Source of the DNA: Asaia bogorensis
Lineage (GTDB): Bacteria > Pseudomonadota > Alphaproteobacteria > CACIAM-22H2
DNA length: 64,000 nt
Reading direction: 5' to 3'
NCBI GenBank assembly: GCA_945901855.1
Contig: CAMDLT010000012.1
Span: forward strand, 1-64,000
The number at the start of each line of letters is the position of its first letter. Position 1 is the first letter of the stretch. This document shows, piece by piece, positions 4,954-21,125 of this stretch. The translations under genes and the position numbers were made by a program. Below the pieces are notes generated by a model. It worked only from the letters and a program-made list of their open reading frames with translations. It had not been told where the DNA came from and ran no database searches.

Positions 4954-5238
4954 ATGGCGACCCAATTCATCGTCCACGACAAAAAAGACACGGTCGGCGT
5001 GATCGTCGTCGAAGACGTCAAGCCCGGCGCCACGCTCGAAGGCTGGCTCATGGAAGGCGACGGCACCGTCAAGATCAAAGCCCTGAAGGCGATTCCGCTC
5101 GGGCACAAGATCGCGATGGTCGACCTCAAAAAAGGCGATACGGTGCTCAAATACGGGCACGACATCGGCCGCATCGTGGCGGACGCCAAAAAAGGCGACC
5201 ATGTCCACGTCCACAACATGAAGACGAAGCGCTGGTAG
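4954..5238 (+). CDS. suyA: (R)-sulfolactate sulfo-lyase small subunit, SuyA-like
   Basis: 94-residue SAF-domain protein of the UxaA family. SuyA with SuyB converts (R)-sulfolactate to pyruvate and sulfite in the cytoplasm. The body reads [19 protein letters not shown], then [17 protein letters not shown], and the C-terminal [14 protein letters not shown] that is typical of this subunit. The size matches the separate small subunit of sulfo-lyases. Altronate and galactarate dehydratases usually carry this domain fused. It is the first gene of the operon and sits 17 bases before the large subunit. A related dehydratase for another hydroxy acid is the main alternative. Confidence 0.8.
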
Positions 5239-5255
5239 CGCAAAAGGAGCGGCCC

Positions 5256-6479
5256 ATGGCCAAAGCCCCTGCAGCAAAGACACCTGCAATCATCAAGAAG
5301 CGCTCGCGTTCGGTCGGCAAATTGCCCTTCATGGGCTTTCGGCGCGAAAACGGCCGCGTCGGCATCCGCAACCACGTGATCGTGCTGCCGCTCGACGATC
5401 TGTCGAACGCGGCGGCCGAAGCGGTTGCCAACAACATCAAAGGCACGATGGCCTTGCCGCACGCCTACGGGCGCTTGCAGTTCGGCGAAGATTTGGCGCT
5501 GCATTTCCGCACGCTGATCGGCACGGGCTGCAACGCCAACGTGGCGGCCGTGGTCGTGATCGGCATCGAGCCCGGCTGGACCGCGCGCGTGGTCGACGGC
5601 ATCGCCAAGACCGGCAAGCCCGTGCAGGGTTTTGCCATCGAAGGCAACGGCGACCTGAAGACCATCGAATCGGCCAGCCGCGTTGCCCAGCAGTTCGTGA
5701 TGTGGGCGACCGAAAAACAGCGCGAAGCCTGCACGATCGACGAATTGTGGGTCTCGACCAAGTGCGGCGAATCCGACACCACATCGGGCCTCGCCTCGTG
5801 TCCGACGGTGGGCAACCTCATCGACAAGATCGATCCGATGGGCGCTACCACCTGCTTCGGGGAAACTTCCGAACTTACGGGTGCGGAGACCGAAATGGTC
5901 AAGCGCGCGATGGACAAGAAGGTCGCCGACAAGTTCATGGGCGTGTTCAACGCCTATCAGGACATGATCAACCGTTTCAAAACGGACGATCTGTCGGACT
6001 CGCAGCCGACCAAGGGCAACATCGCGGGGGGCCTCACGACGATCGAAGAAAAGGCCTTTGGCAATTTCCAGAAGATCGGCCACAAGACCAAGTACGTGGA
6101 CGTGCTGGGCCCGGCCGAAATGCCGAAAAAGGGCAAAGGCCTCTACTTCATGGACACGTCCTCGGCTGCGGCGGAGTGCGTGACCTTGCAGGCGGCGGCG
6201 GGGTTCGTCGTGCATCTGTTCCCGACGGGACAGGGCAACGTGATCGGCAATCCGATCGAGCCCGTCATCAAGCTGACGGCCAATCCCAAGACCGCGCGCT
6301 TGATGCCCGAGCATATCGACCTCGACGTCTCGGGCATCTTGCGCCGCGAGATGGACCTCGACGAAGCGGGCGACCGGCTGATCGACGTGATGATCCGCGT
6401 CTGCAACGGGCGCTACACCTGCGCCGAGGCCTTGGGCCATCGCGAGTTCGTGATGACCAAGCTCTACCAAAGCGCTTAA
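5256..6479 (+). CDS. suyB: (R)-sulfolactate sulfo-lyase large subunit, SuyB-like
   Basis: 407-residue UxaA-family catalytic subunit, the partner of SuyA. After a 25-residue basic leader come [80 protein letters not shown] and [12 protein letters not shown]. These blocks resemble SuyB as I remember it and differ from the fused altronate dehydratase layout. The product sulfite fits the TauE/SafE exporter four genes downstream, and the SlcC/ComC-like genes further on would supply (R)-sulfolactate. Start ATG has AAAAGGAG upstream. The specific substrate remains an inference from family and context. Confidence 0.8.
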
Positions 6480-6483
6480 ACGC

Positions 6484-7197
6484 TTGGGACCGACGATCGA
6501 AGTACGCGTCTGGCGGGGCGGGGCGGAAGGCAGCTTCCAGGCTTTCCATGTTCCGCGCCGTTCCAGCCAGACCGTGCTCGATCTTGTCACCTACATCCAG
6601 CGCAAGCTCGACCCCACGCTCGCCTATCGCTTCGCGTGCCGGGTCGGCATGTGCGGCAGTTGCGCCATGACCGTCGACGGCAAGCCGCGCTGGACGTGCC
6701 GCACGCATGTCGCCAAGCTGGAGGGCGACGTGCTGACGATCGAGCCGCTCAAAAATCTGCCGGTCGTCAAAGATCTTGTCGCGGACCTCGCACCCTTCTT
6801 CGACAAATGGGCCAAGGCGGGCGGCGCGTTCGTGCCCTCGGCGGCGCCGGGCGCGGATTTTGCCGTCGTGCCGCCCGCCTCCGCCGCGCGCCAAGCGGCC
6901 GATGCGGGCATCGAATGCATCGGTTGCGCCGTGTGCTATTCGGCGTGCGACGTGGTCGCGTGGAACCGCGACTATTTGGGGCCGGCAGCGCTCAACCGCG
7001 CCTGGACCTTGCAGAACGACGTGCGCGATGCGGGCCAGCGTGCCCGCCTTGCGGCCGTGGCGGGCGACGCGGGGTGCCATGCGTGCCACACCCAGCAATC
7101 GTGCCGCGCGCACTGCCCGAAATCGCTGAACCCAAGCGCGTCCATCGCGGGGCTCAAGCGCAGCGTGCTCGGCGCCTTGCTGAAGGGCGCGCTGTGA
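6484..7197 (+). CDS. Succinate dehydrogenase/fumarate reductase iron-sulfur subunit-like (SdhB-like)
   Basis: 237 residues. An N-terminal plant-type ferredoxin domain carries the 2Fe-2S motif CRVGMCGSC plus a later Cys (WTCRTH). The C-terminal domain has CIGCAVCYSAC and CHTQQSCRAHCPKSLNP for the 4Fe-4S and 3Fe-4S clusters, so the full cysteine set of SdhB/FrdB is present. It should pass electrons from the SdhA-like flavoprotein (encoded at 12.8 kb) to membrane subunits encoded next. Start is TTG at 6484, four bases after suyB; no better in-frame start was seen. Being inside a sulfolactate operon, it is probably not the housekeeping SDH. Confidence 0.85.
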   Translation: MGPTIEVRVWRGGAEGSFQAFHVPRRSSQTVLDLVTYIQRKLDPTLAYRFACRVGMCGSCAMTVDGKPRWTCRTHVAKLEGDVLTIEPLKNLPVVKDLVADLAPFFDKWAKAGGAFVPSAAPGADFAVVPPASAARQAADAGIECIGCAVCYSACDVVAWNRDYLGPAALNRAWTLQNDVRDAGQRARLAAVAGDAGCHACHTQQSCRAHCPKSLNPSASIAGLKRSVLGALLKGAL

Positions 7198-7526
7198 AGC
7201 TCGATGCCTGGCTGTGGGTCGCCCAGCGCGCCAGTGCGGCCGTGCTCGCCGTGTGCGCGGTGGCGCACCTTGCGACCAACATCTATGCCGTGCAAGGCGG
7301 CTTGAGCGCGGCCGAAATTTTGGCGCGCACGCGCGGCTCGAGTCTGCTCGCGGCGTTTTACGGCGTGTTTGTCGTCGCGGTCGCGATCCATGCGCCCATC
7401 GGCTTGCGCGCCATCGCCAGCGAAATGCTGGGCTGGCGCGGCGCGCGGCTCGACGGGGCGTTGGCGCTGTTAGCGCTGTTGCTGGCGTGGCTGGGCTGGC
7501 GCGCCGTCGGCGGACTGGTCGGATGA
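7194..7526 (+). CDS. SDH/FRD membrane anchor subunit-like (first of two)
   Basis: 110 residues with three hydrophobic segments. QRASAAVLAVCAVAHLATN in the first helix contains an Arg/Ser and a His of the kind used for quinone contact and haem b ligation in SdhC/SdhD anchors. The GTG start at 7194 overlaps the SdhB-like stop (GTGA), and its stop overlaps the next ATG (ATGA). The paired small anchors suggest a four-subunit complex that reduces or oxidises quinone at the inner membrane. Assignment rests mainly on size, topology and position. Confidence 0.72.
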   Translation: MKLDAWLWVAQRASAAVLAVCAVAHLATNIYAVQGGLSAAEILARTRGSSLLAAFYGVFVVAVAIHAPIGLRAIASEMLGWRGARLDGALALLALLLAWLGWRAVGGLVG

Positions 7527-7867
7527 TCCGCCCGCACCGCTCGCACGCGGCTTGGTGGGCGTTTGCGGTGCACCGCGTGTCGGGCCTGTTGCTCGCGCTG
7601 TTTTTGCCGTTGCATTTCTGGGCGCTTGGATTGGCGCTCGAAGGCGAAGCGGCTCTCGATGCGCTGCTAACGTGGACCGACAATCCGGTCTTGAAGATCG
7701 TCGAGGCGGGCCTCGTCGTGCTGCTGGCGGCGCACTTGGCGGGCGGTCTGCGCGTAATGGCGATCGAATTGCTCGCGTGGAACGTCGCGCAAAAAAACGC
7801 GATCGCGGTCTCGGCGTTTTTGGCTTTGGCAACGGGGCTGCTGTTTTTGCTGGGCGCGTTCGCGTGA
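7523..7867 (+). CDS. SDH/FRD membrane anchor subunit-like (second of two)
   Basis: 114 residues with three transmembrane segments. The early motif HRVSGLLLALFLPLHFWAL matches the SdhC-type HR-x-SG element next to the quinone and haem site, and AHLAGGLRVM in the second helix gives another candidate haem His. Start ATG overlaps the preceding stop (ATGA), and the stop overlaps the exporter GTG (GTGA). Together with the preceding protein it should anchor the SdhA/B-like dimer. Which of the two is equivalent to SdhC or SdhD is uncertain. Confidence 0.75.
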   Translation: MIRPHRSHAAWWAFAVHRVSGLLLALFLPLHFWALGLALEGEAALDALLTWTDNPVLKIVEAGLVVLLAAHLAGGLRVMAIELLAWNVAQKNAIAVSAFLALATGLLFLLGAFA

Positions 7868-8583
7868 GCGATACGGCCTATCTGATGATCGGCGCGTTTT
7901 TTGCCGCCATCGCGTCGGGCATGGCGGGGTTCGCATTTGCGCTGATCGCGTCGGCGACCTTCCTGCATTTTCGCGCGCCCGCCGACGCGACGCCGCTGGT
8001 GGTGGCGGCAAGCTTGCTGTCGCAGAGTTTCTCGATCTGGAGCCTGCGCGCGGGCATCGATTGGCGCCGTCTGGCGCCGTTTTTGATCGGCGGCATCGCG
8101 GGCATCCCGCTTGGCATCGCGCTGCTGGGGCTGGTTGCGGCCGATCCGCTGCGAAAATCCATCGGCGCGTTTTTGGTCGTCTACGCGCTTTATATGCTGC
8201 TGGCCCGGCCGCTTGCGCCCGTCGTGCGCGGCGGGCGTGCGCTCGACGGCGCGGTCGGACTGGTCGGCGGCGCGTTGGGCGGGCTTGCGGGCCTGTCGGG
8301 CGCATTGCCCACGATCTGGGCGGGCTTGCGCGGCTGGCCCAAAGACGCGCAGCGCGCCGTCTACCAGCCCTACATCTTCGTCGTCCAGGCGGCGACGCTG
8401 CTGGCGTTGGCGTTCGACGGCGGGATCGGCGAACAGGTGCAGACGGATTTTCTGTTCTGCCTGCCGGTCGTGGCGCTGGGCGTGTGGATCGGGCTCAAGC
8501 TCTATGCCCGCATCGACGACCGGCAGTTCAAACGCATCGTGCTCGCGTTGCTGCTGGCATCCGGGCTCGGACTGGTGTTCTAA
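7864..8583 (+). CDS. TauE/SafE-family membrane exporter, probably for sulfite
   Basis: 239 residues, almost entirely hydrophobic, with the duplicated TauE/SafE (DUF81) architecture: IASGMAGFAFALIAS in the first half and LVGGALGGLAGLSGALP in the second. Members linked to sulfonate pathways (TauZ, CuyZ, SuyZ types) are proposed to export the sulfite released by desulfonation. Start GTG at 7864 overlaps the upstream stop. Its place in an operon with SuyAB supports sulfite export. The family is broad, so an organic sulfonate or another anion is possible. Confidence 0.8.
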   Translation: MSDTAYLMIGAFFAAIASGMAGFAFALIASATFLHFRAPADATPLVVAASLLSQSFSIWSLRAGIDWRRLAPFLIGGIAGIPLGIALLGLVAADPLRKSIGAFLVVYALYMLLARPLAPVVRGGRALDGAVGLVGGALGGLAGLSGALPTIWAGLRGWPKDAQRAVYQPYIFVVQAATLLALAFDGGIGEQVQTDFLFCLPVVALGVWIGLKLYARIDDRQFKRIVLALLLASGLGLVF

Positions 8584-8615
8584 TCGGCCAAAATCAAACC
8601 AAGGGAGATGACGCC

Positions 8616-9626
8616 ATGATCGCCACCCGACGCGCCGTGCTTGCCGGCACCGCCGCCCTGCTCGCCGCCCCCGCAAGCCTGCGCGCGCAGACCGAGGTGC
8701 GCGAAGTGCGCATCGCCAAGCAGTTCGGCATCTCGTATCTGCCGCTGATGGTGATGGAAGACCAGAACCTGATCGAGAAACACGCGAAGGCCGCGGGCCT
8801 CGACGTGAAGACGAACTGGCTGCAGTTTTCGGGCGGCGCGCCGATCAACGACGCGCTCATCTCGGGCAGCCTCGAATTTGCGGGCGGCGGCGTCGGGCCC
8901 ATGATCGTGTTGTGGGCACGCACCAAGGGCTCGCTCAACGTGCGCGGCGTGGCGTCGCTGAATTCGCTGCCGCTCTATCTCAACACCGTCAACCCCAACG
9001 TCAAGACCATCCGCGACTTCACCGACAAGGACCGCATCGGCCTGCCGGCCGTGCGCGTGTCGATCCAGGCGATCACGCTGCAGATGGAAAGCGAAAAGCT
9101 GTTCGGCATGGGCCAGCACGGCAAGCTCGACAACATCACGGTGTCGATGTCGCATCCCGACGCGATGAACGCGATGATGTCGGGGCGCAGCGAGGTGACG
9201 GCGCATTTCGGCTCGCCCCCCTTCCAGAACCAGCAATTGCAGGATGCCCGCGTGACGCGCGTGCTGTCGAGCTACGACGTGCTGGGCGGCCCGGCCTCGT
9301 TCAACTTCATGTGGACGACGGCGCGCGTGCGCGAACAGAACCCGCGCGTCTACGCGGCGTTCGTCGCAGCGCTGGACGAGGCGCACGCGCTGATCAACCG
9401 CGACCGCAGCTTGGCGGCCGACATCTACATGCGCGTGGAACGCGGCGCGCCGCCCAAGGAATTCGTGATGCAGCTTCTCAACGATCCGCAGCACGAATTC
9501 ACCAAGGTGCCGAAGAACACGATGAAATACGCGAGCTTCATGGCCCGCACCGGCACGGTGCGCGAAGCGCCCGCCGACTGGAAAGACATGTTCTTCCCCG
9601 AACTGCACGCGACGCAGGGATCCTGA
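8616..9626 (+). CDS. NitT/TauT-type ABC transporter solute-binding protein
   Basis: 336-residue periplasmic binding protein of the SsuA/THI5-NMT1 type. The N-terminus (ATRRAVLAGTAALLAAPASL) is a signal peptide with a twin-Arg, possibly Tat-dependent. The mature part starts VREVRIAKQFGISYLPLMV and includes GGGVGPMIVLWA and RIGLPAVRVSIQ. AAGGGAG at 8601-8607 precedes the ATG. With the next two genes it forms an importer, and the operon context suggests that it takes up the sulfonated or dicarboxylate substrate of the pathway. The family also binds nitrate, taurine, aromatic acids and thiamine precursors. Confidence 0.85.
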   Translation: MIATRRAVLAGTAALLAAPASLRAQTEVREVRIAKQFGISYLPLMVMEDQNLIEKHAKAAGLDVKTNWLQFSGGAPINDALISGSLEFAGGGVGPMIVLWARTKGSLNVRGVASLNSLPLYLNTVNPNVKTIRDFTDKDRIGLPAVRVSIQAITLQMESEKLFGMGQHGKLDNITVSMSHPDAMNAMMSGRSEVTAHFGSPPFQNQQLQDARVTRVLSSYDVLGGPASFNFMWTTARVREQNPRVYAAFVAALDEAHALINRDRSLAADIYMRVERGAPPKEFVMQLLNDPQHEFTKVPKNTMKYASFMARTGTVREAPADWKDMFFPELHATQGS

Positions 9627-9630
9627 AGCG

Positions 9631-10422
9631 ATGGCGCAGCCGCTTCTGAAGGTGGACGGCGTCACGTTGCAGTACAAGACGGCCGAGCATCTGGTCACCG
9701 CAACCTGGCGCGTGAGCTTCGAAGTTCAGCGCGGCGAGCGCTACGTGCTGCTGGGACCGTCGGGCTGCGGCAAGTCCACCTTGCTGAAGGGCGTTGCCGG
9801 TTTCATGACCCCGGTCGAGGGGCATATCGCGCTCAACGGGCGCGAGATCGACAGGCCCGGCCCCGACCGTATGATGGTGTTCCAGGAATTCGACCAGCTG
9901 CTGCCCTGGAAGACCGTGCATCAGAACGTCATGTTCCCGATGCTGTGCGCGGGCAAATGGAACCGCAAGGAAGCGGGCGAGCGCGCGCGCCATTTCATCG
10001 CCAAGGTGAACCTGTCGAAATTCATCGACGTCTTCCCGCACATGCTGTCGGGCGGCATGAAGCAGCGCGTGGCGATCGCGCGCGCGATGGCGATGGAACC
10101 CGACATTCTGCTGATGGACGAACCCTACGCGGCCCTCGACGCGCTGACGCGGCGCAAGATGCAGGAAGAACTTCTGGAACTGTGGGACGACGTGCGCTTC
10201 ACGGTGCTGTTCGTCACCCATTCGATCGAAGAAGCGATCGTCGTCGGCAGCCGCATTCTGGTGCTCTCGCCCCATCCCGGCCGCGTCAAGGCCGAACTCA
10301 ACTGCCACCAGTTCGACCACACCGCGCAAGGCGGGGTCGAGTTCCAGGCCTTGCAGCGCCGCATCCACAACATGCTGTTCGCCGAGGCGATAGAGCCTGA
10401 GAAAGCCGATGCCCATGGCTGA
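9631..10422 (+). CDS. NitT/TauT-type ABC transporter ATP-binding protein
   Basis: 263-residue ATPase of the SsuB/TauB group. Walker A GPSGCGKST, Q-loop VFQEFDQLLPW, signature LSGGMKQR, Walker B ILLMDEPYAALD and the switch His in VTHSIEEA are all intact. It lies four bases after the binding-protein gene and overlaps the permease gene by 14 bases, so the three should form one importer. No sign of regulation within the protein. Confidence 0.9.
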   Translation: MAQPLLKVDGVTLQYKTAEHLVTATWRVSFEVQRGERYVLLGPSGCGKSTLLKGVAGFMTPVEGHIALNGREIDRPGPDRMMVFQEFDQLLPWKTVHQNVMFPMLCAGKWNRKEAGERARHFIAKVNLSKFIDVFPHMLSGGMKQRVAIARAMAMEPDILLMDEPYAALDALTRRKMQEELLELWDDVRFTVLFVTHSIEEAIVVGSRILVLSPHPGRVKAELNCHQFDHTAQGGVEFQALQRRIHNMLFAEAIEPEKADAHG

Positions 10423-11296
10423 GAGTGGGAAAATCCAGCCCGGCGTGCGCGCCGAATACGAAGTCGCAAGCATCGCCGACGCGCAGTTCGGCGAAGTGGC
10501 GCGTCCGCTTTCGGCGTTCGAGCGCGTGTGGAACCAGACCGGCGTGCGGCGCCTGGCGGTGGTCGCAGCGCTCGCGCTCGCGTGGGAAATTTACGGACGC
10601 ACCCTCAACAATCCGCTGATGTTTCCGCCGTTCAGCGAAGTGTCGGTGGCGTTCTACGACGCCTTCACCAAGGGCCCGTTGCTGGGCCGCATGCTGACGA
10701 CGCTGCAAGTGCTGCTGATCGGCTATGGCTGCGGCCTTGCGCTTGCCGCCGTGTTCACGACGCTGGCCGTGTCGACGCGCTTTGGCAACGATCTGCTCTC
10801 GACGCTGACCGCGATGTTCAATCCGTTGCCCGCGATCGCCTTGCTGCCGCTGGCGTTGCTGTGGTTCGGGCTCGGCATTCCCTCGCTCGTGTTCGTGATC
10901 GTGCACTCGGTCTTGTGGGCGGTGGCGCTGAATACGCATACGGGTTTCAAGTCGGTCTCGGAAACGATGCGCATGGCGGGCCAAAATTACGGCCTGACGG
11001 GCGTGCGCTACGTCATGGCGATTTTGATCCCGGCGGCGTTTCCCTCGATTCTCGCGGGCCTCAAGATCGGCTGGGCGTTCGCGTGGCGCACGCTGATTGC
11101 GGCCGAGCTGGTGTTCGGCGTGTCGGCGCGTTCGGGCGGGCTTGGCTGGTACATTTTCGAGAACCGCAATCTGCTCGAAACCGCCAACGTGTTTGCGGGC
11201 CTGCTCACCGTCATCGTCATCGGCCTGTTCGTCGAAGGCGTGATTTTCCGCGCGATCGAAGCGCGCACCGTGCGCCGCTGGGGGATGCAGCGATGA
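10409..11296 (+). CDS. NitT/TauT-type ABC transporter permease
   Basis: 295-residue inner-membrane permease of the SsuC/TauC group. A 35-residue cytoplasmic tail precedes about six transmembrane segments. The EAA-loop region reads SETMRMAGQNYGLTG and then ILIPAAFPSILAGLKIGW. Two in-frame starts are close (10409 and 10415), both inside the end of the ATPase gene. The stop overlaps the fumarase alpha start (ATGA), tying transport to catabolism in one transcript. Confidence 0.88.
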   Translation: MPMAESGKIQPGVRAEYEVASIADAQFGEVARPLSAFERVWNQTGVRRLAVVAALALAWEIYGRTLNNPLMFPPFSEVSVAFYDAFTKGPLLGRMLTTLQVLLIGYGCGLALAAVFTTLAVSTRFGNDLLSTLTAMFNPLPAIALLPLALLWFGLGIPSLVFVIVHSVLWAVALNTHTGFKSVSETMRMAGQNYGLTGVRYVMAILIPAAFPSILAGLKIGWAFAWRTLIAAELVFGVSARSGGLGWYIFENRNLLETANVFAGLLTVIVIGLFVEGVIFRAIEARTVRRWGMQR

Positions 11297-12177
11297 AACC
11301 GCTTGCCGTCGATCCGGCCGCCATCGAAGAAGCGGCGAAGCTTCTCTATATCCGCGCGCTCAAGATCCTGCCCGACGACATCAAACAGGGTTTCGTTCGC
11401 CTCGACGCGTCCGAGACCGGCGCCACGGCCAAGACGATCCTGGCAACGATGGTCGAAAACATCGACGTGGCCGAGCGCACCGACAATCTTTTGTGCCAGG
11501 ATACCGGCATCCCGATTTTCAATGTCGATATCGGCCAAAATGTCGCGATCGACGGCGTGGCGCTGAAGGCCGCGATCGGGCGCGGCGTGGCGCGCGCCAC
11601 CAAGGAGTATCCGCTGCGCTCGTCGGTCGTGCATCCGCTGACGCGCGTCAACTTGCACAGCTCGTCGGGCATCCGGGTCCCCGTCATCAACATCGATTTC
11701 GTCGACCGGCCCGGCACGCTTCGCCTCGAGATGATCCCGAAGGGTTCGGGCTCCGAGAACGGCTCGTTCCTCAAAATGCTGATCCCGGCCGACGGCATCG
11801 ACGGCATCAAAACCTTCGTGATCGACCGCGTGATGGAAGCGGGCGGCAAGGTGTGCCCGCCCACCATCGTGGGCGTGGGCATCGGCGGCACGTCGGATCT
11901 GTGCATGCACCTTGCCAAGGTTGCGGCCACGCGCGCCTTGGGATCGTCCTGCGCCGATCCGGAAGGGGCAAAGCTCGAAGCGCTGCTCTCGAACGCGGTC
12001 AACACGCTGGGCATCGGGCCGCAGGGGCTTGGCGGGGATTCGACCGCGTTCGCCGTGCATGTCGAAACGGCGGCGACGCACATCACCATGAATCCGGTCG
12101 CCGTCAACATCCAATGCCATTCGGCCCGACGCGCGAGCGCGCTGTTCGACGCCGACGGGCTCACGCTCGGGTTCTAG
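11293..12177 (+). CDS. Class I fumarase/tartrate dehydratase-type hydratase, alpha subunit
   Basis: 294 residues, the 4Fe-4S-binding alpha half of two-subunit class I hydratases (fumarase, L-tartrate dehydratase, mesaconase). Cluster cysteines fit CQDTG (about residue 73), CPPTIVGVGIGG and NIQCHSAR. HPLTRVNLHSSSG is a family block. Single-chain FumA fuses this to the beta part; here the parts are separate, as in TtdAB. In context it could hydrate the product of the SDH-like enzyme, for example a substituted fumarate. Fumarate, mesaconate, tartrate or a sulfonated analogue cannot be separated by sequence alone. Confidence 0.85.
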   Translation: MKPLAVDPAAIEEAAKLLYIRALKILPDDIKQGFVRLDASETGATAKTILATMVENIDVAERTDNLLCQDTGIPIFNVDIGQNVAIDGVALKAAIGRGVARATKEYPLRSSVVHPLTRVNLHSSSGIRVPVINIDFVDRPGTLRLEMIPKGSGSENGSFLKMLIPADGIDGIKTFVIDRVMEAGGKVCPPTIVGVGIGGTSDLCMHLAKVAATRALGSSCADPEGAKLEALLSNAVNTLGIGPQGLGGDSTAFAVHVETAATHITMNPVAVNIQCHSARRASALFDADGLTLGF

Positions 12178-12179: not shown

Positions 12180-12791
12180 ATGGCGCACCATGTTCTCGCC
12201 ATGCCGATCGACGATGCCCGCGTGCGGACCTTGCGTGCGGGCGATACGGTCACGCTCGAAAACGATCTGTTCGGCATTCGCGACGCGACCCAGATCCACA
12301 TGTTCGAGCGCGGCCGCAAGACGCGCTTTTCCCTGCGCGGCCATGCGGTGATCCACACCGCCCCCAACGTGCGCAAAGTGACGCCGTCCAACGAGTGTCC
12401 AGCGGGCTACGCGGCCGTGTGCGTGGGCACCACCACGTCCGACCGCATGGAGCGTTTTTCGCGCCCCTTGATGGCCGAATACGGCGTGCGCCTGATCGTC
12501 GGCAAAGGCGGTTTGCGCGAAGAGTCGCAGGCCGCGTTCAAGGAACTGGGAGGCGCCTATCTTGCCATCATCGGCGGCACGGCAGCGCTCGAGACCACAT
12601 GGATCGAGCGCATCGCGGATGTCGATCTCGACGATCTCAACCCCGAGAGCCTGTGGCATTTCAAGATCAAGGGGTTCGGGCCGCTGCTGGTGGCGATGGA
12701 CAGCCACGGCGCGTCTCTTTACGACGCGGTGCGCGATACGGCGCAGGACCGGCGCAAGGCTGCGCTCGCGGCCTTGGGCGTCAAAACATGA
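12180..12791 (+). CDS. Class I fumarase/tartrate dehydratase-type hydratase, beta subunit
   Basis: 203 residues, C-terminal (beta) domain partner of the preceding alpha subunit. Family blocks seen are RTLRAGDTVTLENDLFGIRD, GPTTS-like VGTTTSDRMERF, IVGKGGL and GGTAALETTWI. The active form should be an alpha2beta2 enzyme in the cytoplasm. ATG at 12180 is two bases after the alpha stop, and its own stop overlaps the flavoprotein start (ATGA). A start at codon 8 is also possible. Confidence 0.84.
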   Translation: MAHHVLAMPIDDARVRTLRAGDTVTLENDLFGIRDATQIHMFERGRKTRFSLRGHAVIHTAPNVRKVTPSNECPAGYAAVCVGTTTSDRMERFSRPLMAEYGVRLIVGKGGLREESQAAFKELGGAYLAIIGGTAALETTWIERIADVDLDDLNPESLWHFKIKGFGPLLVAMDSHGASLYDAVRDTAQDRRKAALAALGVKT

Positions 12792-14509: not shown

Positions 14510-16110
14510 AGATCGCCGACAAACTTGCCCAAACCCTGGCCGACTGGGGGGCGACTTTCGCCTTCGGCATTCCGGGCAACGACGTGCTGGAAACCGTGCG
14601 CGCGTGCGAGGAGGCGGGTATTCGCTTCGTGCTCGCGAAGTCCGAGCCCGCCGCCGCCTTCATGGCCGATGCGGTCTCGCAAATCACGGGCAAACCGCAA
14701 GTGCTGATCCCGGCATTGGGACCCGGCATTGCCAACGCAACCGCCGGTTTGGCCGGCGCCTTGATGGAGCGCTCGCCCATCGCCGTGCTGACCGGCGAGA
14801 TGGCGACCGCCAACCAGCAAATCTACAACCATCAGGCGTTCGACCATGTGGCGCTGGCGACGCCCGTCGTCAAATACGCGGCGACCCTCAATGCCGCGCG
14901 TCCGGCGCAACAACTGGCGCGCGCGCTCGACATCGCGACGAGCTATCCGGCCGGCCCCGTCATGGTCAATGTGCCCGCCGATATCGGGCGTCTGGAAAGC
15001 AGCGAATCCGCGCGTCCGAAGCCCGCGCAGATCGAGCGAACGGCGCTGGCGCCCGACGCGGTCGCCGCTTTGCGCCAAAAAATCGCGGGCGCGAAACAGC
15101 CGCTGGCCCTGGTCGGCCGCGGAGCCTTGGCCGACCGCGTGCCCGCAGCGCTCCAGGCCTTCCTTGAAGGCTGGAACATGCCGTTTTTTGCGACCTACAA
15201 AGCCAAGGGCGTCGTCAGCGACCACCATGCTTTGTGTCTGGGCGCCGTCGGCCTGTCGCCCATCGTCGATGCGGCGAATCTGAAAGTGCTGGCGGCGGCC
15301 GATCTGGTCGTGTGCGTGGGGTTCGATCCAATCGAGCTTCGCGATGCGTGGGTCGATGCGTGGGGCCCCGAGCGCGCGGCGATCGCGCTCGATTGGGGGC
15401 CGCTCAACCATCGTATTTTTCCGCTGGGCCAGGAGTGCCACGGCGATCTGCCGACGATGCTGGCCCAGCTTGTCGGCAAGGGTAACGGCGCGTGGCCGGC
15501 GGCGGTGCTCGATGCGTGCCGCCGGGACGTTGCGCATATCGTGCGTCCACGCGCGCTGTCGCACGCCATTTCGCCCGCCGCCTTGTTCAAGGCCGTATCG
15601 GACCGTGTCGCGCCCGATTGGCGCATGACGGTCGATGTGGGCGCGCACCGTATCCTTGCGAACCATGCCATTGCCTGCAAAGCGCCCGGCCAATTGATGC
15701 AGTCGAACGGCCTGTGCTGCATGGGCTATGCCGTGCCCGCCGCCATCGGCGCGCAATTGGCCGATCGCCGGGCGCCGGTCGTCGCCCTCGTCGGCGACGG
15801 CTGCATGCTGATGACGTTGGGCGAATTGCCGCTCGCGGCCGAACTCGATCTGCCGATCGTCGTCATCGTGCTCAATGACGGCGCGTTGTCGCTGATCAAG
15901 TTGAAGCAGGCGAAGATGCAGATGGACAAACGCGGCGTCGATTTCGCGGGCCCGCGCTTCGATATGATCGCGCAAGCCTGCGGGGCCGCGGGCGTGCGCG
16001 TGGAAACCCAGGCCGCATTCGAAGCGGCGTTCGATGCGGCGCTGGGTGCCCGCAAATTCACGGTCATCGACGCGATCGTCGATGCGGCCGAATACATGGA
16101 GCAGATGTGA
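14506..16110 (+). CDS. Thiamine-diphosphate-dependent decarboxylase/synthase-like enzyme
   Basis: 534 residues with the three-domain layout of acetolactate synthase and benzoylformate decarboxylase. The N-terminal PYR domain holds the catalytic Glu E47 in KSEPAAAFMADA. The C-terminal domain has the ThDP/Mg motif GDGCMLM (430) through LND (N458). A family link to acetolactate synthase is clear; the substrate is not. Located between the flavoprotein and SlcC-like genes, it could decarboxylate sulfopyruvate to sulfoacetaldehyde. Known sulfopyruvate decarboxylases (ComDE) are much shorter and Xsc is longer, so this would be a new assignment. Acetolactate synthase-like activity on pyruvate is an alternative. 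Confidence 0.75.
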   Translation: MKIADKLAQTLADWGATFAFGIPGNDVLETVRACEEAGIRFVLAKSEPAAAFMADAVSQITGKPQVLIPALGPGIANATAGLAGALMERSPIAVLTGEMATANQQIYNHQAFDHVALATPVVKYAATLNAARPAQQLARALDIATSYPAGPVMVNVPADIGRLESSESARPKPAQIERTALAPDAVAALRQKIAGAKQPLALVGRGALADRVPAALQAFLEGWNMPFFATYKAKGVVSDHHALCLGAVGLSPIVDAANLKVLAAADLVVCVGFDPIELRDAWVDAWGPERAAIALDWGPLNHRIFPLGQECHGDLPTMLAQLVGKGNGAWPAAVLDACRRDVAHIVRPRALSHAISPAALFKAVSDRVAPDWRMTVDVGAHRILANHAIACKAPGQLMQSNGLCCMGYAVPAAIGAQLADRRAPVVALVGDGCMLMTLGELPLAAELDLPIVVIVLNDGALSLIKLKQAKMQMDKRGVDFAGPRFDMIAQACGAAGVRVETQAAFEAAFDAALGARKFTVIDAIVDAAEYMEQM

Positions 16111-16111: not shown

Positions 16112-17062
16112 ATGAACGACATTGTCGTCAGCGAATTCGTCGACCAGTGGGCGGTCGACGATTTGGCCCGGGATTATACGGTCCATTACGACCCGAAGCT
16201 TGTCGACAATCCGGACAGGCTTGGCGAACTTGCCGCCGAAAGCCCGGCCATCATCGTGCGCAACCGCACGCAAGTGCGCGGCGCCGTTTTGGCGGCGATG
16301 AAGAATCTCAAAGTCATCGGTCGGCTGGGCGTCGGGCTCGACAATATCGACATGGACGAATGCGCCAAGCGCGGCATCCAGGTGTTTCCAGCGACAGGGG
16401 CCAACACGGTGTCGGTCGCCGAATACGTGATCGCGGCCGTTTTGGTCGGACTTCGCGACGTATGGAAAGCCAACGACGCCGTGCTTGCGGGCAAATGGCC
16501 GCGCAACGACCTGATGCTGGGCGAGGCGATGGGCAAGCGCCTTGGCCTTGTCGGCTTCGGCGGCATCGCGCGCGCGGTTGCCAGCCGCGCCAAAGCGCTT
16601 GAGATGCAGCTTGCCGCCTACGATCCGATGCTGGCGGCCGACGATCCGGCCTGGGCGCAATATGGCGTTATGCGCGAGACCAGCATCGACGCGCTGTGCG
16701 AAAGCTGCGACGTCGTCTCGCTGCACGTGCCCTTGACGCCGCAGACCAAGAACCTGCTCGACGCCGCCAGGCTCGCCCGCATGAAACCGACGGCGCTGGT
16801 GATCAACACTGCGCGCGGCGGCATCGTCGACGAAGCCGCGTTGGCCGCCGCCCTCAGGGCCGGGAAACTCGGCGGCGCCGCGCTCGACGTGTTCGATAAG
16901 GAGCCGCTCAAAGCGGGCTCCGTGCTCGAAGGCATGCCGCGTTTGTGGCTGACGCCGCATATCGCGGGCGTTACGGCCGAGGGCAATGTGCGCGTTTCCA
17001 CCGTCACGGTCGCCAATGTGCGCGGCGCGTTGCAGAAGCTTGGCATCAAGGGCAGCAAATGA
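16112..17062 (+). CDS. slcC: D-2-hydroxyacid dehydrogenase, SlcC-like (S)-sulfolactate dehydrogenase
   Basis: 316-residue NAD-dependent 2-hydroxyacid dehydrogenase of the SerA group. The nucleotide motif GLVGFGGIARAVA is near 150, catalytic Arg in NTARGG, Glu in VFDKEPL and His in LTPHIAG. The N-terminal stretch DIVVSEFVDQWAV, the block IVRNRTQVRGAV and the ATGANTVSVAEYVI region resemble SlcC as I remember it, the enzyme that oxidises (S)-sulfolactate to sulfopyruvate. It stands next to a ComC-like gene, the same pair as in known sulfolactate racemisation loci. Phosphoglycerate or hydroxypyruvate dehydrogenase activity is the fallback reading. Confidence 0.75.
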   Translation: MNDIVVSEFVDQWAVDDLARDYTVHYDPKLVDNPDRLGELAAESPAIIVRNRTQVRGAVLAAMKNLKVIGRLGVGLDNIDMDECAKRGIQVFPATGANTVSVAEYVIAAVLVGLRDVWKANDAVLAGKWPRNDLMLGEAMGKRLGLVGFGGIARAVASRAKALEMQLAAYDPMLAADDPAWAQYGVMRETSIDALCESCDVVSLHVPLTPQTKNLLDAARLARMKPTALVINTARGGIVDEAALAAALRAGKLGGAALDVFDKEPLKAGSVLEGMPRLWLTPHIAGVTAEGNVRVSTVTVANVRGALQKLGIKGSK

Positions 17063-18063
17063 GCGAAACCATCTCGTTGGCCGACGCGCATGCGTTGGCA
17101 GTCATGGCTCTGGTCGCGGGCAATACCTCGCAAGCCAACGCCGCGCATGTTGCCGACGCGCTGATCGGCGCCGAAGCCGATGGGCTTGCAAGCCACGGCC
17201 TGTCGCGTGTCGCGGCCTATGCCGACCAAGCCAAGGTCGGCAAGGTTGCGGGCCATGCCGTGCCGGTCTTGACCAAGACGGCGCCCGGCGCTTTGTTCGT
17301 CGATGCCAAAGACGGCTTTGCCTATCCCGCCATCGCGGCTGCACTTGCCGAAGGGGCGACGATGGCAAAACACGCGGGCGTCGTGGCGGTCGCGATCGGC
17401 AATTCGCATCATTTTGGTGCGGCCGGTTTGCATGTCGAAGCGGCGGCAAAAGCCGGGCTGGTCGCGTTGCTGTTCGGAAATTCGCCTGCGGCCATTGCCC
17501 CGTGGGGCGGATCGGCCGCGTTGTTCGGCACCAACCCCATCGCGTTTGCGTGCCCGCGCGTCGGCAAACCGCCGCTCGTGATCGATCTGTCGCTCTCGAA
17601 GGTCGCGCGCGGCAAGATCATGGTCGCGGCGCAAAAAGGCGAAGCGATCCCGGAAGGCTGGGCGCTGGACGCCGAGGGCAACGCCACGACCGACGCCAAA
17701 AAAGCGCTGGCCGGCACGATGCTGCCGCTGGGCGATGCCAAGGGGGCGGCGCTTGTGCTGATGGTCGAATTGCTGTCGGCCGCCTTGAGCGCGTCGCATT
17801 TCGGGTTCGAAGCAAGTTCCTTCTTCGACGCCAAAGGCCCGCCGCCGCGCGTGGGCCAGCTTTTGCTGCTGATCGATCCCGCGCGCTTTGCGGGCGACGC
17901 GTTTGCGGGCCGGGTCGAAACCTTGCTTGGCGCCATTCTGGGCCAGGCGGGCACGCGCTTGCCGGGCGAGCGGCGTTTGAAGCTGCGCGCGGCCGCCGCT
18001 TTGGGCGGCATCAAGGTGCCAAGCGACTTGCTGGCCGATCTGCGCAAGCGAGCGGCCGGGTGA
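17059..18063 (+). CDS. comC: Malate/L-lactate dehydrogenase-family protein, ComC-like (R)-sulfolactate dehydrogenase
   Basis: 334-residue protein of the Ldh2/ComC/YlbC family, which is unrelated to the Rossmann-type lactate dehydrogenases. Family blocks are GLASHGLSRV, the catalytic His region GNSHHFGAAG, FGTNPIAFACP and DLSLSKVARGKI. ComC uses NAD(P)H to reduce sulfopyruvate to (R)-sulfolactate, the SuyAB substrate. Start overlaps the SlcC-like stop (ATGA). Paired with SlcC it would invert (S)- to (R)-sulfolactate. Ureidoglycolate, malate or other 2-oxoacid specificity cannot be excluded. Confidence 0.75.
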   Translation: MSETISLADAHALAVMALVAGNTSQANAAHVADALIGAEADGLASHGLSRVAAYADQAKVGKVAGHAVPVLTKTAPGALFVDAKDGFAYPAIAAALAEGATMAKHAGVVAVAIGNSHHFGAAGLHVEAAAKAGLVALLFGNSPAAIAPWGGSAALFGTNPIAFACPRVGKPPLVIDLSLSKVARGKIMVAAQKGEAIPEGWALDAEGNATTDAKKALAGTMLPLGDAKGAALVLMVELLSAALSASHFGFEASSFFDAKGPPPRVGQLLLLIDPARFAGDAFAGRVETLLGAILGQAGTRLPGERRLKLRAAAALGGIKVPSDLLADLRKRAAG

Positions 18064-19205
18064 TCGAACGCCATCTTGAAATTCGCGACAGCGTGCGCGC
18101 GATCTGCGCGCGGTTTCCGGGCGCCTATTGGCGCGCGCTCGATCGCGAGCGGCGCTACCCGGCCGACTTTGTCGAAGCGCTGACGACCAGCGGCATGCTG
18201 GCCGCCTTGATACCGGAAGAATATGGCGGCTCGGGCCTGAAATTGTCGGCTGCGGCGGCGATCCTCGAAGAGATCCACGCGAGCGGCGGCAATGGCGGCG
18301 CGTGCCATGCCCAGATGTATACGATGGGCACCATCCTGCGCCACGGCAGCGACGCGCAAAAGCGTCTCTATCTGCCCGACATCGCGGCGGGCCGGTTGCG
18401 CCTGCAAGCCTTCGGCGTAACCGAGCCGGATGCCGGAACCGACACGAGCGCGATCCGCACCACGGCCGAACTGCACGGCGACACGTATGTCGTCAACGGA
18501 CAGAAAGTGTGGACCAGCCGCGCCGAACATTCCGATCTGATGCTGCTGCTCGCGCGCACGACGCCCAAGGAGAAGACCGAGAAAAAGACCGACGGACTTT
18601 CGGTCTTCGTGCTCGATATGCGCGGCGCCAAGGGGCTGACGGTCAAGCCGCTGCGCGCGATGGTCAACCATGCGGCGACGGAAGTGTTTTTCGACAATGT
18701 CGAAATCCCCGCCGCCAACCGCATCGGCGAGGAAGGCCGAGGGTTTCGCTATATTTTGGACGGCATGAATGCCGAGCGCATTTTGATTGCCGCCGAATGC
18801 ATCGGCGATGCGCGCTGGTTCGTCGAAACCGCGACGGCGTATGCAAAATCGCGAAACGTGTTCGGCCGACCGATCGGCCGGAATCAGGGCATCCAGTTTC
18901 CGATCGCGAAGGCCTATGCCGCGATGCGCGCCGCCGAGCTGATGGTCCGCGAGGCGCTGTCGCTCTACGAGGCGAACGCTTCGTGCGGCGCGGAAGCCAA
19001 CATGGCCAAGATGCTGGCGGCCGACGCGTCGTGGCAGGCGGCGGAGGCGTGTTTGCAGACGCATGGCGGTTTCGGCTTTGCCGAAGAATACGATGTCGAG
19101 CGCAAGTTCCGCGAAGCGCGGCTCTATCAAGTCGCGCCGATTTCGACCAACCTGATCCTCGCTTACATCGCCGAGCACGTGCTTGGCCTGCCAAGGTCCT
19201 ACTGA
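18060..19205 (+). CDS. Acyl-CoA dehydrogenase family flavoprotein
   Basis: 381 residues with the complete N-terminal, middle and C-terminal acyl-CoA dehydrogenase domains. FAD-contact blocks FGVTEPDAGTDTS and QKVWTSRAEH are clear. The usual C-terminal catalytic Glu (YEGT) is absent (YQVAPIST), but E239 in NAERILIAAE occupies the helix-G position used by isovaleryl- and long-chain-type enzymes, so dehydrogenation remains feasible. Start GTG at 18060 overlaps the ComC-like stop (GTGA). It sits with a CoA-transferase and hydratase, giving activation, desaturation and hydration steps for a short or branched acid. Confidence 0.85.
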   Translation: MIERHLEIRDSVRAICARFPGAYWRALDRERRYPADFVEALTTSGMLAALIPEEYGGSGLKLSAAAAILEEIHASGGNGGACHAQMYTMGTILRHGSDAQKRLYLPDIAAGRLRLQAFGVTEPDAGTDTSAIRTTAELHGDTYVVNGQKVWTSRAEHSDLMLLLARTTPKEKTEKKTDGLSVFVLDMRGAKGLTVKPLRAMVNHAATEVFFDNVEIPAANRIGEEGRGFRYILDGMNAERILIAAECIGDARWFVETATAYAKSRNVFGRPIGRNQGIQFPIAKAYAAMRAAELMVREALSLYEANASCGAEANMAKMLAADASWQAAEACLQTHGGFGFAEEYDVERKFREARLYQVAPISTNLILAYIAEHVLGLPRSY

Positions 19206-19206
19206 C

Positions 19207-20322
19207 ATGACGCGCGCACTCGACGGCGTATTGGTTGTGGCATTGGAGCAGGCGGTCGCAGCGCCCTATTGCACGTCGCGCCTGGCCGATGCGGGCGCGC
19301 GCGTTGTCAAGATCGAGCGCGCTGAAGGCGATTTTGCGCGCGGCTACGATGCGGTCGCCAAGGGCCAGGCAAGCTATTTCGTGTGGCTCAATCGCGGCAA
19401 GGAATCGCTGGTCGCCGACATCAAGGACGACGGCGACGCCGCCTTGCTGCACCGCGTATTGGCCAAGGCCGACGTGTTCGTGCAGAACCTGATGCCGGGT
19501 GCGGCGGCGCGTGCGGGCTTCGGATCCGACGCGCTGCGCCGCCGCCATCCCAAACTGATCTGCGTCGACATTTCGGGCTACGGCGACGAAGGCCCGTACG
19601 CGACGATGAAAAGCTACGACATGCTGGTGCAGGCCGAAACGGGTTTGGCCTCGATCACCGGCGGGCCGGATGCGCCGGGCCGCGTCGGCGTGTCGGTCTG
19701 CGACATCGCGGCCGGCATGTACGCGCACCAGGCGATCCTCGAGGCGCTGATCAAGCGCGCGCGCACGAACGAAGGCGCGTCGATCAAAGTCTCGCTGTTC
19801 GACGGCATGGCCGATTGGATGGCCGTGCCGCTGCTGCATTTCGACTATGCGGGCAAGGCGCCCGCGCGCGTCGGGCTTGCGCACCCCTCGGTTGCGCCCT
19901 ACAGCGCGTTCGAAAGCGCCGACGGCACGCCCATCGTGATTTCGGTTCAGAACGACCGCGAATGGGCGGATTTCTGCGCGGGCGTGCTCGGCGAACCGCC
20001 GCTGCCGCAGTTCGCGACCAACATCCTGCGCGTGCAGAACCGCGCCGCCCTCGATGCGCATATCGCGGCCGCGTTCAAGCGCCGTCCGCGCGCGGATCTG
20101 GTCGAGCGCCTGCGCCAGTCGCGCATCGCCTTTGGCGAGGTCAACGACGTCGCGGCATTTTCGGCGCATCCGCAATTGCGCCGCGTGAACGTGGCGACTG
20201 CCAACGGCCCGGTCGCGATCCCAGCGCCGCCGCCGATCGTCGACGGCGTGCGCGCGCCCGCTTTGGGGCGCGTGCCGAGCATCGGCGAGCACAGCGCCGC
20301 CATCCGCGCGGAGTTTGCATGA
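19207..20322 (+). CDS. Family III (CaiB/BaiF) CoA-transferase, Mct-like
   Basis: 371-residue CoA-transferase. The catalytic Asp is D138 in SYDMLVQAETG. Other family blocks are GARVVKIERAEGDFARGYD, YFVWLNRGKES and DISGYGDEGPYA. The resemblance to mesaconyl-CoA C1-C4 transferases and the adjacent mesaconyl-C4-CoA-hydratase-like gene suggest that it forms a mesaconyl-type or related dicarboxyl-CoA. The donor is probably succinyl-CoA or an intramolecular CoA shift, which is inference. It lies one base after the acyl-CoA dehydrogenase stop and overlaps the next start by four bases. Confidence 0.82.
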   Translation: MTRALDGVLVVALEQAVAAPYCTSRLADAGARVVKIERAEGDFARGYDAVAKGQASYFVWLNRGKESLVADIKDDGDAALLHRVLAKADVFVQNLMPGAAARAGFGSDALRRRHPKLICVDISGYGDEGPYATMKSYDMLVQAETGLASITGGPDAPGRVGVSVCDIAAGMYAHQAILEALIKRARTNEGASIKVSLFDGMADWMAVPLLHFDYAGKAPARVGLAHPSVAPYSAFESADGTPIVISVQNDREWADFCAGVLGEPPLPQFATNILRVQNRAALDAHIAAAFKRRPRADLVERLRQSRIAFGEVNDVAAFSAHPQLRRVNVATANGPVAIPAPPPIVDGVRAPALGRVPSIGEHSAAIRAEFA

Positions 20323-21125
20323 ATTTGCAGGATTGGATCGGCCGCAGCGAAACCTGTGCCGAGACGATCGCGCGCGCGCGCGTGGCGCAGATCGCCGCGT
20401 GTTTGGACCGCGACGCGCCGGGCGAGGAACTTCCGCCGGGCTGGCACTGGGGCTTTTTCAATCCGGCCGCCAAACAATCCGCGCTTAGTCCCGACGGCCA
20501 TCCCAAACGCGGCGGATTTTTGCCGCCCGTGGCGCTGGAACGGCGCATGTGGGCGGGCGGCACGCTCGTCTACCATGTGCCGCTGCCGGTCGGTGCCGTC
20601 GCCACGCGCGTTTCGACGATCCACCGCATCGACGAAAAACAAGGCCGCAGCGGGGCGCTTGTTTTTGTCGCCGTCGACCATGCGATCCGCTGCGGCGACA
20701 CGCTGTGTCTGGAAGAAACGCACGACATCGTCTATCGCGCGGTCGTTCCCGCCGCCGCGCCGACGCAAGCACAAGGCGACGCGGATTGGAAAGAACGCCG
20801 CGCGGCCGATGCCGTGCTGCTGTTTCGCTATTCCGCCGTCACCTTCAACGGCCATCGCATCCATTACGACCGCGCCTACGCGCAGAATGTCGAAGCCTAT
20901 CCGGGGCTGGTCGTGCACGGGCCGTTGCTTGCGACGCTGCTGCAGGATTTTGCCGAACGCAGCATGGGGCGTCGGCTCCAGCGGTTTTCGTTTCGAAGCG
21001 CCGCGCCGCTGTTCGACGGCGAACCGTTCGAGCTTTGCGGCAAAAGGGACGGCAATTTTTGGATTGCGGCGGGCGACGGTCGGTTGATCCAGCGCGCGCA
21101 CGCGGAATTTGCGCCAAGCGACTAG
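20319..21125 (+). CDS. MaoC/HTD2-type hydratase, mesaconyl-C4-CoA hydratase-like
   Basis: 268 residues, double-hotdog enzyme of the HTD2/FAS1-dehydratase type. The N-terminal half has PPGWHWGFFNP and KRGGFLPPVALERRMWAG. The C-terminal half has FRYSAVTFNGHRIHYD, the hydratase-2 motif, and YPGLVVHGPLLATLL. This layout matches Meh, which hydrates mesaconyl-C4-CoA to (S)-citramalyl-CoA. As the last gene of the run it ends four bases into a convergent gene. Products could be cleaved by a malyl/citramalyl-CoA lyase such as the Mcl1-like protein at 31.8 kb. A different enoyl-CoA substrate is possible. Confidence 0.78.
   Translation: MNLQDWIGRSETCAETIARARVAQIAACLDRDAPGEELPPGWHWGFFNPAAKQSALSPDGHPKRGGFLPPVALERRMWAGGTLVYHVPLPVGAVATRVSTIHRIDEKQGRSGALVFVAVDHAIRCGDTLCLEETHDIVYRAVVPAAAPTQAQGDADWKERRAADAVLLFRYSAVTFNGHRIHYDRAYAQNVEAYPGLVVHGPLLATLLQDFAERSMGRRLQRFSFRSAAPLFDGEPFELCGKRDGNFWIAAGDGRLIQRAHAEFAPSD

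Follow-up and report, generated by a model that had tools for sequence, protein, structure and literature searches.

The 64,000-nucleotide window analysed here is part of a 3.68 Mb draft genome of Asaia bogorensis and carries, on the forward strand between positions 4954 and 21125, a tightly packed run of 18 genes with two distinct sets of components: the genes of sulfolactate degradation (suyA, suyB, slcC-like and comC-like genes and a gene for a TauE-type exporter), and an sdh/fum block, which encodes the A, B, C and D subunits of an enzyme resembling complex II (succinate dehydrogenase/fumarate reductase) together with both subunits of a class I fumarase-like hydratase (FumAB). This block is a real and recurrent sulfonate gene set: it recurs near suyAB, slcC-like and comC-like genes across alpha- and betaproteobacteria, and it has no gene assignment in the sections of the literature surveyed here. 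Our tentative reading, to which we give slightly less than even weight, is that the core of the cluster constitutes an operon for the catabolism of 3-sulfopropanoate (3-sulfopropionate).

In 3-sulfopropanoate, a sulfonate takes the place of one of the two carboxylates of succinate. In the scheme we propose, a sulfonate-type ABC transporter would import this compound; the complex II-like SdhABCD would oxidise it to 3-sulfoacrylate, passing the electrons to quinone; FumAB would add water at the carbon beside the carboxylate to give 3-sulfolactate; SlcC and ComC would epimerise this, by way of sulfopyruvate, to (R)-sulfolactate; SuyAB is proposed to cleave the latter to pyruvate and sulfite; and TauE would export the sulfite. 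We infer the substrate, the order of the reactions, the site of hydration, the export of sulfite and the regulation from sequence. Since SuyAB and SlcC/ComC-like enzymes are encoded next to it, the Sdh/Fum pair should yield sulfolactate or sulfopyruvate. The original prediction for this DNA had placed a sulfonated dicarboxylate, sulfosuccinate for example, at the head of such a pathway: its idea of a sulfonate stands, but 3-sulfopropanoate is the more likely substrate and the simpler one, because oxidation and hydration would yield sulfolactate directly, without the oxidation or decarboxylation of a sulfomalate.

The proposed intermediates are those of the homotaurine/3-sulfopropanoate route of Roseovarius nubinhibens, for which a thesis, as cited in PMC11489063, reports that the breakdown of 3-sulfopropanoate passes through sulfoacrylate and sulfolactate; the sections of PMC11489063 covered here name no genes for this route, and the gene assignment is our own. 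Equally, no gene assignment for 3-sulfopropanoate breakdown was found in the sections covered of PMC11489063, PMC9594981, PMC12890257, PMC5592240, PMC11659671, PMC5320631, PMC6336799 and PMC12330013. In these sources the compound is a product of sulfoquinovose and 2,3-dihydroxypropane-1-sulfonate (DHPS) fermentation in Enterococcus, and also of homotaurine use, and its breakdown is variously said to call for study (in reviews), to be unclear (in Bilophila) or not to have been reported previously. A defined gene set that recurs in alpha- and betaproteobacteria makes this gap directly testable.

Two types of the sdh/fum block

The comparison covers 109 loci. Besides the window and 10 relatives, these are 78 loci from the best 80 SdhA matches, seven plasmid loci and 13 loci from a sample of the phylum; L021 was left out before counting, as were L026 (a copy of L021) and L027 (a copy of L020). 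Typing was by fumA similarity within 10 kb; 'near' denotes a distance of at most 10 kb, and well-flanked loci have 8 kb or more of sequence to either side. There are two types: type I, which is window-like, with fumA of at least 60% identity and the order sdhBDC...fumAB-sdhA (79 loci, 47 well-flanked); and type II, with fumA of 29-40% identity and the order sdhBDC-sdhA-fumAB (20 loci, 17 well-flanked). Type I is over-represented, because 78 of the loci come from the best 80 SdhA matches, and the loci are not independent of each other.

The original prediction had linked the Sdh- and fumarase-like genes to sulfonate catabolism and had named conserved synteny with suyAB as the thing to look for; both are borne out by the linkage to SuyAB, SlcC/ComC-like and TauE genes. 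Among the well-flanked type I loci, suyB is near 33 of the 47, and 12 of the 14 that lack it nearby lie in genomes holding SuyB elsewhere (at least 68% identity), as against 15 of 396 genomes in the phylum sample, a distribution that supports 3-sulfopropanoate catabolism as the role of the cluster. slcC-like genes are near 24/47 and comC-like genes near 34/47. In the well-flanked type II loci, by comparison, suyB is near none (0/17) and slcC-like and comC-like genes are near one each (1/17); the Fisher test for suyB between the types gives p = 2e-7, uncorrected for kinship, and SuyB occurs somewhere in 4 of the 13 type II genomes searched. Raw counts, taken without a background control, stand at 29/47 for a TauE- or YeiH-type exporter and 34/47 for a GntR homologue near type I, at 10/17 for an exporter and 14/17 for LysR near type II, and at 31/47 against 5/17 for a homologue of the thiamine diphosphate (ThDP) enzyme. 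Within the phylum sample of 396 genomes (own genome excluded) the SdhA form is found in 13, SuyB in 15 and both in four (Fisher p = 0.0008); such co-occurrence alone is no proof of the type I link, because three of the four double carriers have type II modules with suyAB elsewhere.

Two loci illustrate the types. On pMRAD01 of Methylobacterium radiotolerans a single run comprises sdhBDC-fumAB-sdhA, a ThDP enzyme gene, two UxaA-family genes (suyAB), DctA, an slcC-like gene, an Ldh-family gene and GntR, with TauE in the same run on the opposite strand. In Pseudomonas sp. MPC6 a gene for a CoA-acylating methylmalonate-semialdehyde dehydrogenase comes immediately after the type II order sdhBDC-sdhA-fumAB, and genes for TauE, TTT carriers, a sulfite oxidase and a putative sulfate exporter are no more than 10 kb away. 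By clustering, this dehydrogenase family is present in 4/20 type II and 0/79 type I loci; it stands directly 3' of fumB in L114 (13343-14833) and in L177 (13386-14876, by similarity to L114), and a partial copy lies nearby in L085, which belongs to neither type. C4-dicarboxylate-type carriers (DctA, TTT, TRAP) are also present in related loci, a point that speaks for 3-sulfopropanoate as well.

Further genes were observed in or beside individual modules. A sulfatase-family gene lies between sdhC and fumA in nine betaproteobacterial loci, including L045 (282-1658). On the NT-25 plasmid (L113, 20077-21662) genes annotated as sulfolactaldehyde 3-reductase and gabD adjoin a type II module with a TRAP carrier, neighbours that would be consistent with an input of 3-carbon sulfonates. 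In the type II loci L116 (13338-14171) and L173 (13551-14414) the gene 3' of fumB has a similar start sequence in both and looks, by eye, like a metal-dependent hydrolase. The genes adjoining the type I module of L095 (13734-19855) we take, by eye, to be pta-like, xsc-like, MocR-type regulator-like and taurine-type aminotransferase-like. Finally, L056, L067, L082, L035 and L087 have doubtful titles (bins named Bordetella parapertussis; planctomycete or Cytophagales contigs with a betaproteobacterial-type module), perhaps through errors of binning or naming.

Distinctive forms of SdhA and FumAB

The enzyme of the cluster resembles complex II in its four subunits, its quinone-type membrane anchors and its substrate-site residues: His236, Arg285, His349 and Arg383, by alignment to E. 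coli FrdA, are kept and are invariant in 9/9 sequences, and we assume for them the roles usual in this family. Its SdhA is nevertheless distinct in sequence from canonical SdhA. It falls short of the curated SdhA/FrdA cut-offs (TIGR01812, 442 of 567; TIGR01816, 343 of 727) and has the motif GK[CST]GCTRMVQGG in 108/109 sequences, the FAD-attaching His being absent; the canonical SdhA encoded elsewhere in the genome has HPTG-IYGAGCLITEGSRG and the SHT motif of covalent FAD. A second signature, HPTG...R-[MIL]-TGT-[VI]-[LI]-EEGLRG, marks the active-site flap in 96 of the 97 sequences (of the 109) compared at this motif. Relative to E. coli FrdA this flap has about six added residues, including one Arg, R247, and a Glu in place of the FrdA Thr, so that an Arg and a Glu-Glu pair distinguish it. 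A structural model built from a 9-row alignment has a mean predicted local distance difference test score (pLDDT) of 65, and the flap scores below 50, too low to locate the added Arg.

FumAB, in turn, is comparable to the two-subunit class I fumarases/L-tartrate dehydratases: fumA passes the NCBIfam fumarate hydratase model NF004885 (307 of 276) and TIGR00722, fumB reaches 132 bits on TIGR00723 against a cut-off of 145, and the three Fe-S cysteines and the Thr/Ser/Arg/Lys motif of the beta subunit are present in FumAB of both types, presumably with the catalytic roles usual for them. What sets it apart is that it is a second hydratase, beside the FumC encoded elsewhere in the genome (706 bits, cut-off 665), and that, like the SdhA form, it sits among sulfonate genes. 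The two types of FumAB differ at many fixed positions, including a GSGSEN stretch. The recurrence of a defined gene set suggests that the chemistry of complex II and that of fumarase were jointly turned to a sulfonate. Public records label members of the block succinate dehydrogenase, fumarate hydratase or FAD-binding protein, and the SdhA flap is a marker by which a putative sulfur-cycle branch hidden under these annotations could be traced.

A SuyB of the ordinary kind

The suyA and suyB genes are separate and encode the small and large subunits of SuyAB, in line with its description as a heteromeric member of its superfamily in the sections covered of PMC6336799. In a SuyB tree of 74 rows the window protein belongs to a group of 71 (support 99/98); the UxaA-type rows L210 and L211, the only two included, lie outside it, as does a Haloarcula row on a very long branch, whose placement is unsure. 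Five alignment columns are Cys in both UxaA rows: four of them are non-Cys in 72/72 other rows, and one is Cys in 72/72. The use of cysteines as a discriminator, four in number, comes from PMC6336799 as covered here; the columns compared are those with Cys in both UxaA rows. Clustering with UxaA dehydratases, which had been named as a finding that would undermine the sulfolactate assignment, is thus not observed in this tree, and the Cys columns agree; on both counts the window SuyB appears to be an ordinary SuyB. Being ordinary, and interleaved with copies from loci that lack sdh genes, it implies that the pathway should reach ordinary sulfolactate.

A specialised SuyB for the operon was sought and not found, the Sdh-linked rows being scattered over the SuyB tree. 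The Sdh-linked label requires 19 changes on this tree, as compared with a mean of 24.3 on shuffling (13/500 shuffles were as low), which points to a clustering that is at most weak.

The ComC-like protein has the L-sulfolactate dehydrogenase model as its top NCBIfam match, at 195 bits of the 500 needed, and the SlcC-like protein matches no SlcC model; the naming as SlcC/ComC rests on position beside suyAB. The ThDP protein of the window is AlsS-like, and that of L115 has 2-hydroxyacyl-CoA lyase and benzaldehyde lyase as its nearest solved structures. Known entries to sulfolactate are cysteate, DHPS, sulfoquinovose and sulfofucose. With the SuyAB-SlcC-ComC pathway of Chromohalobacter and Paracoccus (PMC12421959) the window shares suyA, suyB of the same clade, slcC-like and comC-like genes and a TauE-type exporter; the window differs in having an Sdh/fumarase pair, none being assigned to that pathway in the sections of PMC12421959 covered.

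Points against 3-sulfopropanoate, and a possible role of type II

Several observations weigh against 3-sulfopropanoate as the substrate. The synteny of type I fits sulfosuccinate too. The genomes of the type I loci L095 and L103 have no SuyB match anywhere, and neither has G408. Ten loci have no nearby fumA match: six reach a contig end, and the other four (L068, L077, L085 and L118) are well-flanked and so carry the SdhA form without a nearby fumA; SuyB is present in 3/3 of the genomes of L068, L077 and L085. Without the His to which FAD is normally attached, the enzyme could work towards reduction rather than oxidation, as reported for E. coli Frd mutants. The ThDP enzyme has no role in the scheme, and an aminotransferase family able to make 3-sulfopropanal from homotaurine, named by eye, is near only 3/109 loci. 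An Enterococcus TauE protein is described as a probable exporter of 3-sulfopropanoate (PMC11489063, in the sections covered), so that TauE need not move sulfite and may instead move 3-sulfopropanoate. Lastly, during growth of Paracoccus wurundjeri on sulfofucose, nine proteins of the cluster MDP0926751-0926761 are up; PMC12421959, in the sections covered, assigns the cluster to the metabolism of fumarate and tartrate, notes a TauE homologue in it and connects it with the Krebs cycle. From the likeness of this description to the type II module of Paracoccus ferrooxidans we infer that it may be a type II module. Sulfofucose is not thought, in the same source, to pass through 3-sulfopropanoate; if it is the same module, the cluster would support a sulfonate role and misfit a strict 3-sulfopropanoate inducer.

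For type II itself a different hydration is conceivable, and we put it forward as speculation, with perhaps somewhat better than one chance in five. The type II hydratase would add water at the sulfonate-bearing carbon of sulfoacrylate. The product, a bisulfite adduct of malonate semialdehyde, would break down to sulfite and 3-oxopropanoate; the CoA-acylating semialdehyde dehydrogenase would then convert the latter to acetyl-CoA, while type I would lead to sulfolactate for SuyAB. Such a hydration would account for the lack of suyAB nearby and also for the semialdehyde dehydrogenase of type II. If true, a fumarase-like hydratase would bring about C-S cleavage without any sulfo-lyase.

Alternative readings of the cluster

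Among the rival explanations the sulfosuccinate route survives best, although we consider it unlikely, at about one chance in five: sulfosuccinate would be oxidised to sulfofumarate, hydrated to sulfomalate, and oxidised and decarboxylated to sulfopyruvate, to be reduced to sulfolactate and cleaved by SuyAB. C4 dicarboxylates are the substrates of fumarases and Sdh, C4-dicarboxylate-type transporters are near many loci, and the extra redox steps could be shared by the two 2-hydroxyacid dehydrogenases. However, the additional oxidation and decarboxylation have no dedicated gene, and the route leaves unexplained the semialdehyde dehydrogenase of type II, which would be called for by a C3 and not by a C4 substrate. 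Quick and colleagues reportedly worked on sulphosuccinate in 1994; no gene-level sulfosuccinate pathway was found in the sections of the literature surveyed.

Rather improbable, in our estimate, is that the last three genes of the cluster, acad, caiB and mch (the CoA branch), form a second, CoA-dependent route for a sulfonate or sulfinate that shares TauE and SlcC. In its favour, tauE-slcC-acad-caiB-mch occur together in L135, L136 and L141, where suyAB, comC, ThDP, ABC and sdh/fum genes are absent from the locus, a unit that is perhaps a separate sulfur-acid pathway. Further, the acad protein has Pro where the catalytic Glu is usual and a non-acidic residue at the alternative position (10/10 aligned orthologues), these being the positions that we take to be catalytic, and 3-sulfinopropanoyl-CoA desulfinase is among its NCBIfam matches (202 bits, 600 needed). 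Against this, acryloyl-CoA reductase and glutaryl-CoA dehydrogenase score above the desulfinase, and in L137 and L142 mch has neither caiB nor acad near it.

Still less probable is that the Sdh/Fum genes are spare citric-acid-cycle isozymes, or serve mesaconate or methylsuccinate, and lie beside suyAB for other reasons. The fumA score above the fumarate hydratase cut-off and the adjoining CoA genes, of families known from mesaconate metabolism, would agree with this; yet the genome already holds a canonical SdhA and FumC, the sdhA of the cluster scores well below the SDH cut-offs, the linkage to suyAB is repeated across classes, and the CoA branch is found without the sdh/fum module. The mesaconate/methylsuccinate option, which the original prediction had kept as its alternative, is likewise disfavoured by the block near suyAB being mostly without CoA genes (mch is near 6/47 well-flanked type I loci). 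Least probable of all is a direct action of SuyAB on the C4 hydroxysulfonate 3-sulfomalate, giving oxaloacetate and sulfite: superfamily members do act on larger hydroxyacids and two suyAB copies flank the module in L030 and L049, but the L049 copies are sisters, those of L030 fall within one unresolved Massilia group, the Sdh-linked SuyB form no clade of their own, with weak clustering at most, and the window SuyB is 96% identical to that of L134, a locus of the same genus that lacks the sdh block.

Modularity within the family

The complete 18-gene order is repeated in four same-genus loci, L015-L018, of which L017 and L018 carry one extra gene of the enolase superfamily. Such a gene is seen in or beside some modules (L017, 7377-8513; L018; L115, 14329-15468; L050), and it may encode a racemase that acts on a chiral substrate or product.

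Elsewhere the 18 genes come apart into at least four modules. L134 has suyAB-ThDP-slcC-comC-acad-caiB-mch, without tauE, ABC, sdh or fum genes; L139 has suyAB-tauE-ABC-ThDP-slcC-comC-acad-caiB-mch, with sdh/fum absent from the locus and fumB-sdhA on another contig of the same genome (L019). As these modules separate within same-family genomes, the CoA branch is a long-standing neighbour, and the sulfolactate core and the sdh/fum block are a second and a third unit. The original prediction had placed the CoA branch in the same unit; as a required part of the pathway it is rejected, because L134 keeps acad-caiB-mch and suyAB-ThDP-slcC-comC without sdh/fum or a transporter, and acad-caiB-mch also occur without suyAB and sdh/fum in L135, L136 and L141. 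Likewise mch was found in 15/15 family genomes searched, six of which (G001, G003, G005, G007, G009 and G014; G001 and G007 being only 84% complete) gave no SdhA match. The Mct/Mch pair of the methylaspartate cycle (PMC5592240, in the sections covered) shares with the window the families of class III CoA-transferase and MaoC-type hydratase; the differences are that the 18 genes include neither glutamate mutase nor methylaspartase and that the CoA branch is separable from the sulfonate core.

An archaeal version on a Haloarcula plasmid

On a plasmid of Haloarcula sp. GH36 (L118, 3416-11413) sdhA and sdhB are grouped with two UxaA-family (suyAB-type) genes, an Ldh-family (comC-like) gene, tauE and an argH-family gene, and fumAB is absent from the group, an arrangement that counts in favour of the 3-sulfopropanoate reading. 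The ArgH-family protein could be the missing hydratase. It scores 257 bits on the XcbC model of coenzyme M (CoM) synthesis, below the cut-off of 575, and passes argininosuccinate lyase (323 bits, cut-off 279.5); it may be a plain argH, which would tell against such a role.

Gene inventory and regulation

The 18 genes lie on one strand with short junctions, as originally described: most are overlaps or gaps of a few bases, the widest being 32 bases (8584-8615) 5' of the binding-protein gene. Start codons are predicted, sdhB being assigned a TTG start. The gene families as first named were confirmed by Pfam and NCBIfam profile matches.

All on the forward strand, the series begins with suyA (4954-5238), for the (R)-sulfolactate sulfo-lyase small subunit, a separate small gene adjoining suyB whose product has no Pfam match and matches in part the N-terminus of galactarate dehydratase; and suyB (5256-6479), for the large subunit, with GD_AH domains and in the SuyB clade. 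The sdhB-like iron-sulfur subunit (6484-7197; Fer2_3, Fer4_17; TIGR00384 184 bits, cut-off 88) is followed by two separate anchor genes: the sdhD-like membrane anchor (7194-7526), a reading frame without a Pfam match of its own, conserved in place and sequence in relatives, and the sdhC-like cytochrome b subunit (7523-7867; Sdh_cyt PF01127, 2.9e-13). Next come the TauE/SafE-family exporter, assumed to act on sulfite (7864-8583; PF01925 108 bits, cut-off 32.6), and the ABC transporter: an SsuA/NMT1-like substrate-binding protein (8616-9626; TIGR01728 3e-16, below its cut-off), an ATPase of the taurine/nitrate class (9631-10422; ABC_tran, with the taurine ATPase as top NCBIfam match, below its cut-off) and a permease (10415-11296; BPD_transp_1).

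The proposed type I sulfoacrylate hydratase consists of the fumA-like alpha subunit (11293-12177; PF05681 295 bits; C68, C188 and C275 kept) and the fumB-like beta subunit (12180-12791; PF05683; T85, S87, R89 and K109 kept), after which stands the sdhA-like flavoprotein (12788-14509; FAD_binding_2 and Succ_DH_flav_C, with the distinct signature), the proposed catalytic subunit of a 3-sulfopropanoate dehydrogenase. The AlsS-like ThDP enzyme (14506-16110), which stays beside suyAB-slcC-comC in L134 where the sdh block is absent, precedes the slcC-like 2-hydroxyacid dehydrogenase (16112-17062; PF02826, PF00389) and the comC-like sulfolactate dehydrogenase (17059-18063; Ldh_2 325 bits). The separable neighbours close the series: the acyl-CoA-dehydrogenase-like acad (18060-19205; PF00441 among others), the class III (CaiB-type) CoA-transferase caiB (19207-20322; PF02515 336 bits) and the MaoC/FAS1_DH-like hydratase mch (20319-21125; PF13452 26.6 bits, cut-off 22).

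Divergent from suyA, on the reverse strand, is gntR (4116-4844), for a GntR-family regulator that shares 82% identity across 242 aa with its divergent counterpart in L016. Between the two genes a near-palindrome, TCTTGTATAAGA (4847-4858, with no strand assigned), is a putative GntR operator. The sequence TCTTNTATAAGA has a single exact match in the 3.68 Mb genome, at the intergenic site upstream of suyA, and operator-like sites, similar but non-identical, occupy the same place in eight relatives, as judged from an alignment by eye. The divergent GntR protein probably controls the promoter at the head of the cluster, and the 18 genes are presumably transcribed as one unit. The two genes 3' of the cluster (22348-25240), which we take by eye to be cobS and cobT, are kept there in several relatives.

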